64,000 nt of DNA from contig NZ_FXTH01000001.1 in NCBI RefSeq assembly GCF_900182555.1, positions 186,001 to 250,000 on the forward strand, in the 5' to 3' direction. This document shows positions 36,494 to 42,472 of the stretch, one piece after another. Each line of letters starts with the position of its first letter. The stretch's first letter is position 1. The position numbers and the translations under genes are program-made. Under the pieces are notes generated by a model. That model had not been told where the DNA came from. It ran no database searches and worked only from the letters and a program-made list of their open reading frames with translations. The stretch comes from Fodinibius sediminis. GTDB lineage: Bacteria; Bacteroidota; Rhodothermia; Balneolales; Balneolaceae.

Positions 36494-37246
36494 CTATATA
36501 TCGTGATAAAAGCGATGACGAAGCTCTTGAATATAGATGCCGATATCATTCCGGAGTTCAAACAGCTGCTCGTGAAAGGCAAGGTATTGTTTCTTCGTAA
36601 TAAGGGAAGTGCCTTTCAGATCCCGCTGTAAAATAGTCAGCGCATCATTGGCACAGTAGAGGGCCTGCTTGGTGTAGGCGATATTTCCGCCCAGAAACTC
36701 CCGCTCAAAACCAAAAGCATATCCCCCCGCGATTTTAGCTCCCACCTTGAGTACATTGCCCACGAAGTCGGTGCAGTGCCCTTTTAGAAACTTGGGATTA
36801 CGGTACTCAATCCACTGCAGGATACCAACGGCAAGTTCCCGGGAGTCATTGTAAATATCAAGCATCTCGATAGAGCCGTGGCTTGAAAGTGTAAATTCAT
36901 CGCTCAGCTCTTTCCATTCCTCTCCCTCGTCAAAATCGTCCTCCTCATCAAAGAGAAACTCCTCCTCTTCCCATTCCTCCCATAAGAAATCGTCATAATC
37001 ATCATCCAGCTCCTCTTCGTCATCCTCAAAATAGGGATCTTCGTATTTCAGTTCTTCCTCGATGAATGCATCGACTGCTTCCCGCTCGTCCCGGTTTTCC
37101 CGGAGAAGAATCAGCCATCTCGGGGTTGAATCCGAGGCATCCGGGGCTATGAACTTCCGGAGCTGGGTATTCTGCTTGGCTATCTCATTCAAATGGGCCT
37201 CCCACTGGTGTTCATCCCAAATATCATCATTGAAATTAGCAAACAT
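36494..37246 (-). CDS. Acidic protein of unknown function
   Basis: A 250-residue soluble protein with three parts. Residues 1-60 are helical (MFANFNDDIWDEHQWEAHLN). About residues 62-118 are extremely acidic, nearly all Glu and Asp with interspersed Phe, Trp and Tyr. The C-terminal ~130 residues form a helical domain (SIEMLDIYNDSRELAVGILQ, FVGNVLKVGAKIAGGYAFGF, FHEQLFELRNDIGIYIQEL). There is no signal peptide. I recognise no family. The codon pattern and clean ATG support a real gene. It stands alone between two convergent/divergent neighbours. Confidence 0.8.
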   Translation of the reverse strand: MFANFNDDIWDEHQWEAHLNEIAKQNTQLRKFIAPDASDSTPRWLILLRENRDEREAVDAFIEEELKYEDPYFEDDEEELDDDYDDFLWEEWEEEEFLFDEEDDFDEGEEWKELSDEFTLSSHGSIEMLDIYNDSRELAVGILQWIEYRNPKFLKGHCTDFVGNVLKVGAKIAGGYAFGFEREFLGGNIAYTKQALYCANDALTILQRDLKGTSLITKKQYLAFHEQLFELRNDIGIYIQELRHRFYHDI

Positions 37247-37440: not shown

Positions 37441-38277
37441 TCAGAGCCGTTCCAGCACACCCATAAGAACCTTGGTCATCCTGGGCTCCGCAATGCCGGC
37501 GGCTTTTAGCACTTTCTCGATATTGACCGGCTCCAGCGCATCGGGAAAACATTCATCGGTTATGGCGGAAAGGCCAAGCACCTCCATCCCCATATGGACT
37601 GCAGCGATCACTTCGGGCACCGTACTCATCCCGACGACATCGGCCCCGATCATACGCAGAAACCGGTATTCGGCCCTGGTCTCCATGGTAGGACCGCTCA
37701 GGGCCAGGTAAACCCCCTTATGCATCTTTATCCCCCGTTCCAGGGCCACTTCTTCGGCAATATCCTGAAGACGCTGCGTATAGGGCTCGCTCATATCCGG
37801 GAACCGGGGACCCAGCTCGTCATCATTGGGACCAATAAGCGGATTGTCTCCCAGCATGTTGATATGATCGCTGATCAACATGATGTCCCCGCTGCTGTAG
37901 TTGGGATTCATGCCCCCGCAGGCATTGCTCACAATCATTGTCTGTATATCCAGTGCATTAAGCACTCGCACCGGAAAGGCGATCTGCTGCATGGTATAGC
38001 CCTCGTAATAGTGAAAGCGGCCCTGCATGGCTACAATCTTTTTTCCGCTGAGATTTCCGAACAGGAGCCTCCCTTCATGACTTTCAACCGTGGAAACCGG
38101 AAAATGCGGAATGTCATCGTAAAATATCGTATCCTGAACGTCAACCTGGTCTGCCAGGCGGCCCAAGCCTGTTCCCAGGATAATCAGATAATCCGGACGG
38201 AAATCGGTTTGCTCTTTGAGATAGGAAAGCGCTTTATCACGTTTTTCTCGAAATTCCTGAACGGTTTCTCGCTGCAT
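37441..38277 (-). CDS. Purine nucleoside phosphorylase (trimeric type)
   Basis: The 278-residue enzyme cleaves inosine, guanosine and deoxy analogues with phosphate for purine salvage. Motifs: YLIILGTGLGRLADQV, QGRFHYYEGYTMQQIAFPVR, VSNACGGMNPNYSSGDIMLI, DHINMLGDNPLIGPN and LSAITDECFPD, all typical of the PNP/MTAP-type trimeric class (PunA). Length is normal. It follows divIVA on the same strand after 147 bases and could be the last gene of that transcript or independent. Confidence 0.96.
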   Translation of the reverse strand: MQRETVQEFREKRDKALSYLKEQTDFRPDYLIILGTGLGRLADQVDVQDTIFYDDIPHFPVSTVESHEGRLLFGNLSGKKIVAMQGRFHYYEGYTMQQIAFPVRVLNALDIQTMIVSNACGGMNPNYSSGDIMLISDHINMLGDNPLIGPNDDELGPRFPDMSEPYTQRLQDIAEEVALERGIKMHKGVYLALSGPTMETRAEYRFLRMIGADVVGMSTVPEVIAAVHMGMEVLGLSAITDECFPDALEPVNIEKVLKAAGIAEPRMTKVLMGVLERL

Positions 38278-38424: not shown

Positions 38425-39045
38425 TCAATCCAACTCATCGATGATGTCATCCACATTTTCTGCACCGGGGGGCAGCGGTTGAGGTTCCGCTTCAGCGTCT
38501 TCCCCCTCCGAGGATCTTTTCTGCTGCCGCTCCACGCGTTCTTTTAATTTTATGGACACTTCCCCCTCCTCATCAGGCAGGTTAAAAAGAGACGCCTCGT
38601 CTTTGGAGAATTGCTCGAGCGACTCCTGGGCCATTTCGAGATAGGAACGAATGCCCCCGATAATCTCCTTGCGGCGATCCAGCAAACGGATAATGCTCTG
38701 CCGTACCTGCTGGCGCTGCTGGGTCGCATCTCGGATTATCGTTTCAGCCTCCATTTCGGCTTTTTCTATTTTGGTCTGCGCCTCGCGCCGGGCACCGGTA
38801 AGCTTCTGTTCGGCCGATTCCTTGGCCGTTTGCAGGGTTTCATGAAGCGCTTCCTCCACCCGCTCATAGTGCTTCAGCTTTTCCTCCAGATCATCAATTT
38901 TTTTCTGTAGTTCACGGTTTTTCGAGACCATGTGTTCCCATTCATTCGACATGAGATTAAGAAATGCCTCTACCTCTGCTTTGTCGTAACCGCGAAGCGA
39001 TTTCTCAAAATTCTGCTGTTTGATCTCAAGTGCCGTTAATTTCAT
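38425..39045 (-). CDS. DivIVA domain protein
   Basis: The 206-residue protein begins with the DivIVA lipid-binding pattern TALEIKQQNFEKSLRGYDKA followed by EVEAFLN. An almost continuous coiled coil (about 35-150) and an acidic, proline-ending tail follow. DivIVA proteins gather at curved membrane and recruit division, growth or segregation factors. They are best studied in Gram-positive bacteria, and in diderms of this phylum the role is little known. It is preceded by a PspB-like membrane protein (46 bases), a 52-codon gene and yggS on the same strand, a layout like ylmE ... divIVA. Confidence 0.93.
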   Translation of the reverse strand: MKLTALEIKQQNFEKSLRGYDKAEVEAFLNLMSNEWEHMVSKNRELQKKIDDLEEKLKHYERVEEALHETLQTAKESAEQKLTGARREAQTKIEKAEMEAETIIRDATQQRQQVRQSIIRLLDRRKEIIGGIRSYLEMAQESLEQFSKDEASLFNLPDEEGEVSIKLKERVERQQKRSSEGEDAEAEPQPLPPGAENVDDIIDELD

Positions 39046-39091
39046 AGCAAAATGCCCTAAAGTAGGTGAAAGTTATTACTGTTATTAAAAC

Positions 39092-39457
39092 CTATCGTTC
39101 GTTCAACATGTTCCGGAGGCTTCCTCCCGGATCAGCCGCAGAGTTGCGCTCATCGTTATCTTCCAGTTCTATGGATTTGCTTGCCTGTTCCACTGATTCA
39201 GCTTGATGAGGCAGTGACTGGGACTCGGTCTCTTCACCAGCCACAATAGCTTCCAAATTACGAATGCGCCGTTCACTGTTGGACCGATATTCCATAAAAG
39301 CCTGGGCAAGGTTGTCAAAATCTTCCTCTGTAATAGCCGTGTTGTTGCGGTTGATCCAGGTCTTTATCAACCCCACTATTTTTGCAAAAATAAATGCAAC
39401 CAGCCCAATTCCCCCGACAGCTCCCACAAGTGCTACTACCATCTCTTCAAATGTCAT
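39092..39457 (-). CDS. Small membrane protein, PspB-like
   Basis: The 121-residue protein has one N-terminal transmembrane helix (about 6-28, VVALVGAVGGIGLVAFIFAK), then a short helix-rich cytoplasmic segment. That segment's NLAQAFMEYRSNSERRIRNL pattern followed by EAIV resembles the leucine-zipper-like end of phage shock protein B. The last ~50 residues are polar and acidic. The similarity to PspB is by eye and modest. The start is fixed by GGAGGA at 39465-39470, 7 bases ahead of the ATG, and the ATG overlaps the stop of the upstream small gene (ATGA). Confidence 0.75.
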   Translation of the reverse strand: MTFEEMVVALVGAVGGIGLVAFIFAKIVGLIKTWINRNNTAITEEDFDNLAQAFMEYRSNSERRIRNLEAIVAGEETESQSLPHQAESVEQASKSIELEDNDERNSAADPGGSLRNMLNER

Positions 39458-39612
39458 ATTGTATTCCTCCAATTGTTATGCAATGCCAGAATCCTGCTGT
39501 CATTAGCCTCTTCAGGGGTACGGAATTTAAAATAATTGCCCCTGAGCTGTATGATGTCATGGCTATGCTGTTTTTCGATCACTATACTACCTAACCCAGC
39601 ACAGGCTTTCAT
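39454..39612 (-). CDS. Unannotated 52-residue small protein
   Basis: A 53-codon frame begins at an ATG at 39612 with an AGGAG ribosome site at 39619-39623 (6-base spacing), and its TGA overlaps the ATG of the PspB-like gene (ATGA at 39454-39457). The product starts MKACAGLGSIVIEKQHSHDI and has a central ...QLRGNYFKFRTPEEANDS... segment that looks like an ordered alpha/beta piece; there is no signal or membrane segment. It is too short for most length cut-offs. It follows yggS by 76 bases. Function unknown. Confidence 0.6.
   Translation of the reverse strand: MKACAGLGSIVIEKQHSHDIIQLRGNYFKFRTPEEANDSRILALHNNWRNTI
39465..39470 (-). promoter_or_regulatory. Ribosome binding site deciding the PspB-like start
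   Basis: GGAGGA on the minus strand ends 7 bases before the ATG at 39457 and lies inside the alternative TTG-started frame, so the ATG is the true start. Confidence 0.75.
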
Positions 39613-39688
39613 TGCGAACTCCTGCCGCCTGCAAGGTAATGTACTAAATCTTAGCGATATTGAAACATCCTTATAACGATTTTACCCA

Positions 39689-40393
39689 CTAATAGTTGCG
39701 TTCGCCGAATATGGCACGTCCAACGCGCACCATGGTTGCCCCCTCTTCGATAGCTACCTCCATATCGTTGGTCATTCCCATTGATAGGTGTTCAAGCCGA
39801 ATATTGTCAGAATCATACGACCGGTGCTTATCACGCAGCTGTCGAAGCCGCTGAAATTGGGGGCGCACCGCCTCTGCGTTGCCCTTTTCCACAAAGGTCG
39901 CCATCCCCATAAGTCCGCAGACCTCCACATGCTCCAGGGCCTGTGCATATTCAAGAACGGATGCCAAGTCTCCGGCTTCACAGCCTCCTTTCTGCTCCTC
40001 CCCGCTTATATTTATCTGAATAAGTGTTTTAATGGTCCGGTTGATACGGGACGCTCTTTTTTCTATTTCCCGGAGATATTTCTTCTTCTCGATTGAATGA
40101 ATCCAGTTAACCCGATCAACCATGTATTTGATTTTATTGGTCTGGAGGTTCCCGACCATATGCCACTGGATCTGCTCTTCATCACAGGCCTCCATCTTTT
40201 CCTGGAGTTCTCTGGCGCGGTTTTCACCGAAATGAAGTTGTCCACAGTCAAAAGCGGTTTTGATGTCGTCCAGCGGTTTCATTTTGCTGACAGCGATGAG
40301 CCGGACCTCTTCTGGGTCGCGCCCGGCACGGACGCAGGCCCCGGCTATTCGATCCTTGACGGTGGCGAGATTTTGACAAATATCCTCAGACAT
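39689..40393 (-). CDS. yggS: YggS family pyridoxal-phosphate homeostasis protein
   Basis: The 234-residue fold-type III PLP protein carries the lysine in LIAVSKMKP, then HFGENRARELQEKMEAC, WHMVGNLQTNKIKYM, WIHSIEKKKYLREI, LIQINISGEEQKGGC and EHLSMGMTNDMEVAIEEGATMVRVG. YggS/YlmE/PLPBP proteins keep PLP pools in balance rather than run a known reaction. In Gram-positive bacteria the homologue YlmE lies in the division cluster next to sepF, ylmG and divIVA; here it heads a four-gene run ending in divIVA. The ATG at 40393 is preferred to a GTG two codons upstream. Confidence 0.96.
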   Translation of the reverse strand: MSEDICQNLATVKDRIAGACVRAGRDPEEVRLIAVSKMKPLDDIKTAFDCGQLHFGENRARELQEKMEACDEEQIQWHMVGNLQTNKIKYMVDRVNWIHSIEKKKYLREIEKRASRINRTIKTLIQINISGEEQKGGCEAGDLASVLEYAQALEHVEVCGLMGMATFVEKGNAEAVRPQFQRLRQLRDKHRSYDSDNIRLEHLSMGMTNDMEVAIEEGATMVRVGRAIFGERNY

Positions 40394-41737: not shown

Positions 41738-42472
41738 ATGGAAGAAGTACTTCAACAATTAGCTAATCTTCAGTATATCGACACCAGAATTGATGAGCTA
41801 AAGCAGCTACGGGGTGATCTGCCGGAAGAAATTCTCGATATTGAAACAGACATCAATCGCTACGAGGCACAAATTAAGCGGCTTGAGGAAGAAAAGAAAA
41901 ACCTGAAAGTAGAGAAAGACAACCTCGAGCTCGAAATCCAGGATGCCCAGAATAAAATGGACAAGTACGAAGAACAGCAGATGTCGGTCCGCAACAATCG
42001 GGAATACGATGCGCTGACGAAAGAGATCGATTCTCAGAAACAGGTCATCGAGAATGCCGAGTCGCGCAAGGAGGAGATCGAGAAGCGAATGGATGAAATT
42101 GACCCGGAGATCGAAGAAGCCCAGGCGCAGCTGGAACAGGTCGAAGCGCTGTATGAAGATAAGAAGCAGAACCTTGACAAAGTTGTCAAAGAGACGGAAG
42201 AAGAGGAAGAAATGCTTCTTGATAAGCGCGAAGAGGTTGAAAAAGATATCAGCCAACGCTACCTGAAAAGCTACAAGCGACTGCGCAACGGCCTCTCCAA
42301 CGGACTGGCTGTTGTACCGATGGAGAAAGGAGCGGCATTGGGAATGGCACTGCCTCCGCAAACCCAGGTCGAAGTTCGCCATAAGAATAAGATTATTATT
42401 GATGAAAATAGTGGACGCATTGTGGTGCATCCATCTTTTTTCAAGAAAGCCAAAGAACAGCTTTCGCTGTAA
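41738..42472 (+). CDS. Zinc-ribbon (CT398-like) coiled-coil protein lacking all zinc cysteines
   Basis: A 244-residue protein with a long charged antiparallel coiled coil (about 1-175) and a C-terminal domain that aligns with the C4-type zinc ribbon of the CT398/YbgI-partner family by MALPPQ (203-208), VEVRHKNKIII (211-221) and SGRIVV (225-230). The family's two CxxC pairs should lie near 198-202 and 222-225, but these read GAALG and DENS, and the whole protein contains no cysteine. The fold may persist without metal. It follows the Nif3-family gene by 18 bases, as in other phyla. Confidence 0.9.
   Translation: MEEVLQQLANLQYIDTRIDELKQLRGDLPEEILDIETDINRYEAQIKRLEEEKKNLKVEKDNLELEIQDAQNKMDKYEEQQMSVRNNREYDALTKEIDSQKQVIENAESRKEEIEKRMDEIDPEIEEAQAQLEQVEALYEDKKQNLDKVVKETEEEEEMLLDKREEVEKDISQRYLKSYKRLRNGLSNGLAVVPMEKGAALGMALPPQTQVEVRHKNKIIIDENSGRIVVHPSFFKKAKEQLSL

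Follow-up and report, generated by a model that had tools for sequence, protein, structure and literature searches.

The window analysed here is a stretch of 64,000 nucleotides (nt) of Fodinibius sediminis DNA (G000:C1:186001-250000) from a genome of 4.4 Mb in 50 contigs with a completeness of 97.9%, and its minus strand carries a divIVA locus in which a small putative membrane protein is encoded directly in front of divIVA. The locus comprises yggS (39689..40393, minus strand), encoding a pyridoxal phosphate (PLP)-binding protein of the YggS/YlmE family (TIGR00044, 190.3 bits versus a cut-off of 106.25), a gene for a PspB-like membrane-span plus coiled-coil protein of 121 amino acids (aa) (39092..39457, minus strand), and divIVA itself (38425..39045, minus strand; 206 aa; PF05103, 98.7 bits versus a cut-off of 28), which was the single DivIVA match of this genome in a profile search. 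Between yggS and the 121-aa gene lies an open reading frame (ORF) of 52 aa (39454..39612, minus strand). It is separated from yggS by 76 nt and overlaps the 121-aa gene by 4 nt (ATGA), while 46 nt separate the 121-aa gene from divIVA.

An initial annotation had read these four minus-strand ORFs as a counterpart of the Gram-positive ylm-divIVA division locus, with two different small proteins in the middle. The ORFs are placed as described there, including the ATGA overlap, but the 52-aa ORF is probably no gene, and the true theme of the locus is a single protein family arranged in tandem copies. Close relatives of the window DivIVA, at 91%, 87% and 81% identity, are encoded by Fodinibius roseus, F. 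salsisoli and F. halophilus, respectively. F. roseus is assigned to Balneolota, Balneolales, Balneolaceae in the NCBI taxonomy; the ranks from genus to phylum used in the following are those of the genome collection, whose phylum is broader than the NCBI Balneolota.

The PspB-like array in front of divIVA

A DivIVA match was obtained in 55 of 58 genomes of the family, and together with five loci from elsewhere in the order these gave 60 order loci. A PspB-like gene is located directly before divIVA in 54/55 family loci and in 5/5 other order loci. Two PspB-like copies were counted in 40 of the 60 loci, one in 9, three in 8, four in 2 and none in 1; these copy numbers are lower bounds because contig ends or the fetched flank cut some of the loci. 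At 62 copy-to-copy junctions an overlap of 1 or 4 nt was found in 18 cases and a gap of at most 20 nt in 55, so that by their layout the genes look packed as if translationally coupled, and the last copy precedes divIVA by a median of 45 nt (59 loci).

The encoded proteins share a common layout of a membrane span, Lys/Arg residues, a helix with R..NLEAI, an acidic linker and a C-terminus specific to the type of copy. On a simple hydrophobicity scale 119 of 121 array proteins have a single span, and the Lys and Arg residues that follow it would, by the positive-inside rule, orient the C-terminal part towards the cytoplasm and the side of DivIVA. In the window protein a long N-terminal helix containing the span (residues 3-38; 39344..39451, minus strand) is predicted by its AlphaFold2 (AF2) model, and a cytoplasmic helix with the conserved R..NLEAIV (residues 44-72; 39242..39328, minus strand) by the alignment and this model. 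The conserved C-terminal peptide LRNMLNER (39095..39118, minus strand) was located in the alignment (A1).

The copies fall into types labelled A (first in the array), B and C (last); the labels follow from position and were set by hand for four loci (L024, L001, L010 and L016). In a tree of 129 copies, 53 A-type rows and three single copies of genus g5 share one starred branch (100/99), and the remaining copies lie among C and B. Nine loci were omitted from the tree, namely L032-L036 (named species, mostly duplicating others) and L060, L062, L074 and L095 (short or divergent). Both A and C occur in families f1, f2 and f3, which together with their separation on the tree indicates that both types were retained for a long time, and B copies arise repeatedly inside C (four changes). 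Judged by this tree, A and C are old duplicates; the exact order of duplication is unsure because the columns are few and the midpoint root is weak. The C-terminus of type C reads (L/I)(R/K/Q)NML in 25/25 Balneolaceae rows and L(R/K)N(Q/H)L in the other six, and that of type A is unlike it. Five positions are invariant in the 31 C-type rows (R64, L68, E69, N116 and L118), which singles out the cytoplasmic helix and the tail at the C-terminus. According to alignment, tree and the low-confidence AF2 model the 121-aa window protein is of type C, the only type carried by its genome. A relocated A copy was considered for this genome and rejected: at E values up to 1 the A-type profile gave only the C gene (0.05) and one stop-interrupted place (0.08).

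Membrane-span plus coiled-coil proteins of a wider family are scattered in the class (L149, L150, L168, L151-L156 and L161-L163), many of them with NLE.IVTS..WD-like motifs. Tandem pairs occur among these relatives in L149, L150, L151 and L168, and a gene near those in L150, L151 and L168 is presumably HisG-like, as judged from its start.

The label PspB-like given by the initial annotation corresponds, for the window protein, to no more than a sub-threshold match (PF06667, 14.6 bits versus 25.6). With A-type proteins, PspB models topped the list, PF06667 matching 25/30 at E values up to 1 (best 1.6e-6) and TIGR02976 28/30 (best 3.6e-7), and among C-type proteins PF06667 matched 17/31 (best 2.7e-5). 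The Pfam PspB cut-off of 25.6 was reached by two A-type proteins (25.7 and 28.5 bits) of the 11 that were scored in bits, and the A-type protein of F. roseus (L031) scored 22.0 bits versus 51.7 for TIGR02976. Ten further relatives, of which seven lie elsewhere, two beside divIVA outside the order and one is a B-type, gave no score over the PspB cut-off. The A and C profiles matched each other with a probability of 98 over 51 columns, covering the cytoplasmic helix and the linker and excluding the membrane span. Since PspB models top the A-type searches and A matches C, a remote kinship of type A with PspB is likely and C is linked to it through A. PspB membership of the array proteins is not established, the window protein being under the cut-off, and a coiled-coil bias may contribute to the PspB matches because other coil families also match weakly. 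Searches against solved structures returned weak matches for the array proteins, mostly to coiled coils (best E 0.017).

Alternatively, the array could be a scattered PspB-type part of an envelope stress response that operates with PspC and PspA encoded elsewhere, with the adjacency to divIVA being an accident of an old operon. The leading position of the PspB profiles in the A-type searches fits such an origin, as do the related proteins at other loci of the class and the presence of PspA and of PspC each in 38/40 order genomes. The curated cut-off is nevertheless reached by two of 11 A-type proteins and missed by the window protein, and the array stands beside divIVA in 59/60 order loci of the sample, even where yggS is missing. 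In the window's genome PspA and PspC matches are located on contigs C12, C11 and C2 and the array gene on C1, so that the array lies outside any psp operon there. Overall this stress explanation is considered unlikely.

The 52-aa reading frame and the 15-nt element

The 52-aa ORF occupies the position of paralogues A and B in relatives. Its candidacy as a real partner gene was rejected because it is missing in the other genomes of the genus and has a non-coding-like codon usage: no match at E values up to 0.1 was found in 11 other genus genomes (present in 1/12, its own), and its codon-usage score of -0.03 is exceeded by every one of 136 equally long slices of real window genes, which were taken from the genes that had also trained the codon model. 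A score as high as this was reached by 24% of 214 spurious ORFs. In Fodinibius relatives yggS and the C gene are about 400-1,085 nt apart and this interval holds one to three PspB-like copies; in the window it measures 231 nt. The first approximately 50 nt past yggS are similar in five relatives (score 82 versus F. salsisoli, for example, where 200 shuffles reached 27 at most). That the ORF might be the decayed remnant of an A or B copy was also considered and rejected, as the best local alignment with each of these relatives spans only about 45-50 nt after yggS, before the ORF start. The 52-aa ORF is thus most likely spurious, and the ATGA overlap, which is real, probably just marks the former end of a lost paralogue.

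In the same interval of the window, at 39636..39650 on the minus strand, a promoter-like element of 15 nt, GATTTAGTACATTAC, was found, which is kept before the first array gene in Fodinibius. The seven other loci of the genus within L001-L030 (L002-L008) show all 15 letters, and so do the named loci L032-L037; F. roseus (L031) has 14/15. In other genera it was found in L009 (14/15) and L017 (15/15), and the best match in the remaining loci was 13 or fewer letters. The window copy is the sole exact copy in its genome. A regulon was tried and rejected, since six matches in the genome at up to two mismatches compare with five for the reversed control. The simplest guess is that the element is a promoter for the array and divIVA, and its position between yggS and the array in Fodinibius hints that these genes may have a promoter of their own.

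The neighbourhood of divIVA across Bacteroidota

Downstream of divIVA the window locus continues on the minus strand with a gene for purine nucleoside phosphorylase (PNP; 37441..38277; NF006054, 373.3 bits versus 218) and a gene for an acidic protein of 250 aa without a known family (36494..37246; no Pfam match at E values up to 0.01). As both genes are kept beside divIVA in relatives, the extent of 38425-40393 initially assigned to the cluster is too short. Divergent genes upstream of the locus encode a NIF3-like protein and a coiled-coil protein with a weak zinc-ribbon match. The latter (41738-42472, plus strand) resembles the CdsZ/CT398 zinc-ribbon family with a sub-threshold Zn_ribbon_9 match; it contains no cysteine, and a C4 zinc site is therefore impossible.

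For the comparison across ranks, divIVA matches were obtained in 120/247 phylum genomes, and loci were fetched from 21/23 class genomes and 45/62 genomes elsewhere in the phylum. Two class genomes were omitted because their genus had already been fetched, and 17 others were left out by hand, including the weakest matches (G115 and G230). The class and phylum counts depend on profiles built in this analysis. Near divIVA, yggS was found upstream in 49/55 family loci, a PspB-like gene in 54/55 and PNP downstream in 54/55, and each of the six family loci without yggS has 1.5 kb or less of upstream sequence. The corresponding counts are 1/5, 5/5 and 5/5 in the other order loci, 19/21, 2/21 and 21/21 in the class, and 30/45, 0/45 and 30/45 in the remainder of the phylum. 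Consequently yggS-divIVA-PNP is, by gene order, a common core that is not universal (15/45 loci outside the class lack a nearby yggS and 15/45 a nearby PNP), and the counts across ranks suggest that it is the older part, to which the array was added in Balneolales. Two cases elsewhere in the class (L074 and L095) are possible arrays. The gene for the 250-aa acidic protein follows PNP in 47/55 family, 5/5 order and 7/21 class loci.

The grouping of yggS, small protein and divIVA proposed from the window was thus recovered in the family, but not throughout the order, where yggS is absent from four of the five other loci. In these four (L066-L069) no yggS was found across the fetched sequence of about 12.6 kb, about 6 kb of it upstream, and the A/C pair stays with divIVA, which argues that the link of the array to divIVA is tighter than that to yggS. 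Upstream of the array in L066 and L069, the place of yggS is taken by genes of about 300, 216 and 207 aa, the last two encoding multi-span proteins. That the array serves YggS, in PLP handling or as a membrane tether, with divIVA as a bystander, would agree with the upstream position of yggS in the family loci and with a related gene in G122 that lies 11 nt past yggS and away from divIVA (L161). The four loci without yggS and the conserved 15-nt element that separates the array from yggS in Fodinibius speak against such a role, which is regarded as very improbable.

In Bacillus the full cluster has the order ylmE-sepF-ylmG-divIVA-ileS. The likeness to this cluster that had been noted for the window holds and is stronger than claimed, because ileS, counted on the same strand downstream of divIVA in loci with at least 4.5 kb of flank, follows in 12/21 class loci and 23/43 loci elsewhere in the phylum. 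The complete set of yggS, divIVA, PNP and ileS is present in 12 class loci and 21 other phylum loci (33/64 outside the order). Two of the ileS genes were named by TIGR00392 and the rest were identified by a profile built from 12 ileS. No ileS was found downstream of divIVA in the window, in 25 family loci, in the five other order loci or in nine named loci. In 10 of the 43 loci elsewhere in the phylum (e.g. L098:7364-7978 and L112:7355-7975) a multi-span protein is encoded between PNP and ileS, and its C-terminal stretch matches the DivIVA coil below the cut-off (Pfam E values of about 6e-4 to 7e-4 in two that were scanned). This protein may represent a further membrane partner that DivIVA has elsewhere in Bacteroidota.

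The initial annotation had further suggested that the small proteins stand in for SepF and YlmG, i.e. that they replace them as an FtsZ anchor or septal membrane partner. Their position in the locus corresponds to that of sepF-ylmG in the Gram-positive cluster, and SepF and YlmG are both missing from the order: SepF was absent from 40/40 genomes (the control matched in 7/14 known genomes), and YggT/YlmG was over the cut-off in 0/40, with one weak match. FtsA is over its cut-off in 40/40 order genomes, however, so that an FtsZ anchor is likely present and a SepF stand-in is not needed, and the SepF and YGGT profiles gave no match to either small window ORF at E values up to 1. Outside the class, where PspB-like genes were found in 0/45 loci, yggS ends within 220 nt of divIVA in all 30 loci that have it, which leaves the place unfilled. 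The proposal is therefore weak, and a replacement of SepF or YlmG is judged improbable.

A possible role of the array proteins and comparison with known systems

The window DivIVA was aligned with B. subtilis DivIVA (2wuj) over positions 1-57. RGYD is kept and L17 R18 stand at the places of F17 R18, so that by alignment this part is a putative lipid-binding domain; F17 of the B. subtilis protein is presumably involved in membrane insertion. In the model of the window DivIVA, residues 5-16 form an N-terminal helix and residues 22-152 a single long one, with a mean predicted local distance difference test score (pLDDT) of 77.9. A motif in the DivIVA tail that would go together with the array was tried and set aside: its occurrence in 50/60 order proteins versus 1/66 others is partly circular, since the pattern was fitted to Balneolales letters. 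DivIVA proteins of other Bacteroidota have hydrophobic-acidic tails of their own, as seen by eye.

Since the array adjoins divIVA inside a cluster that is like the Gram-positive one, its proteins are good candidates for DivIVA partners, and we see about an even chance that they are membrane-bound partners of this protein. The locus would then represent the Balneolales version of an old division-linked yggS-divIVA-PNP(-ileS) cluster, in which small membrane proteins with one span and a PspB-like build came to be inserted immediately ahead of divIVA. An early duplication would have given A (first) and C (last), further duplication from C would have followed in some lineages, and the window genome would have retained type C alone. 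The N-terminal helix would serve as membrane anchor and the cytoplasmic helix may mediate oligomerisation. A flexible acidic linker would present the conserved C-terminal peptide (LRNML in type C), which may bind DivIVA or a protein gathered by DivIVA at poles or septum.

That the array proteins act with DivIVA is inferred from gene order, and their oligomerisation, the part played by the tail and their cell location are likewise inferences. Several observations weigh against this partnership. With a hydrophobic residue and an Arg kept at the places of F17 and R18, DivIVA may need no anchor, and a conserved C-terminal tail is found, in other forms, also in DivIVA of Bacteroidota without an array. 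The AF2 model of the C protein is of low confidence (helices 3-38, 44-72 and 113-119, low-confidence stretch 75-111; pLDDT 61.7, predicted template modelling score 0.23), and the C gene shows a nonsynonymous divergence (dN) of 0.29 versus F. roseus, for which no usable synonymous value (dS) was available and no dN/dS ratio is claimed. The window genome manages with one C-type copy, loci of genus g5 hold a single copy, which is A-type in the three that the tree includes, and in one genome of the family (G016, L050) no PspB-like gene precedes divIVA, with the apparent end of an unrelated protein upstream. Finally, array relatives occur away from divIVA: one lies 11 nt after yggS in G122 (L161), and two stand in tandem in G240 (L168), where no DivIVA match was obtained.

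A more specific proposal, which we regard as doubtful, is that a PspB-type stress protein was recruited, so that an A/C hetero-oligomer binds DivIVA via the C-terminal peptides, links DivIVA-controlled envelope growth or division to membrane stress, and takes the place held by SepF/YlmG in the homologous Gram-positive cluster. For DivIVA, a protein mostly studied in Gram-positive bacteria, the array proteins are small, concrete and testable candidate partners in a diderm setting, and they are available in cultured, named species, for example Fodinibius roseus.

In open-licence full texts of PubMed Central, co-occurrence of PspB and DivIVA was limited to single mentions of each word, and no description of this locus was found among the listed titles and abstracts matching DivIVA with Bacteroidetes, the YggS/PNP neighbourhood or ileS. 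The YggS family has been discussed as syntenic with sepF and proC (PMC5504682). In PspB a membrane helix at the N-terminus precedes a helical cytoplasmic part (PMC11237479), a build that the array proteins may share, going by the low-confidence model of the window protein. Their PspB profile matches are sub-threshold to marginal (e.g. positions 9-64 of 73), and unlike PspB they are longer, with an acidic linker and a conserved C-terminal peptide. Moreover, the array gene of the window's genome has neither pspA nor pspC as a neighbour, and tandem copies adjoin divIVA. Duplicates of PspB inside psp operons have been reported, and DivIVA is unmentioned in the main text of that report (PMC11237479).

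Bdellovibrio is likewise a diderm with divIVA downstream of yggS, and one study reports co-transcription of its yggS-proC-divIVA-yggU operon, a promoter of divIVA's own inside yggS-proC-divIVA, and a two-hybrid interaction between the ProC homologue and DivIVA (PMC7186360). Unlike in Balneolales, the middle gene proC encodes an enzyme and not a membrane protein, and there is no array (PMC7186360).

The Gram-positive cluster differs from the Balneolales locus in that the order lacks SepF and YlmG, has PNP after divIVA and a PspB-like array before it, and shows no ileS in the 25 family loci with at least 4.5 kb downstream. It is resembled in the YggS-family gene upstream of divIVA, in the small membrane protein between the two and, in many Bacteroidota outside Balneolales, in the ileS after divIVA. 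Taken together, the gene order suggests that a yggS-divIVA-ileS cluster is common to Gram-positives and Bacteroidota and that Balneolales added membrane proteins of their own.

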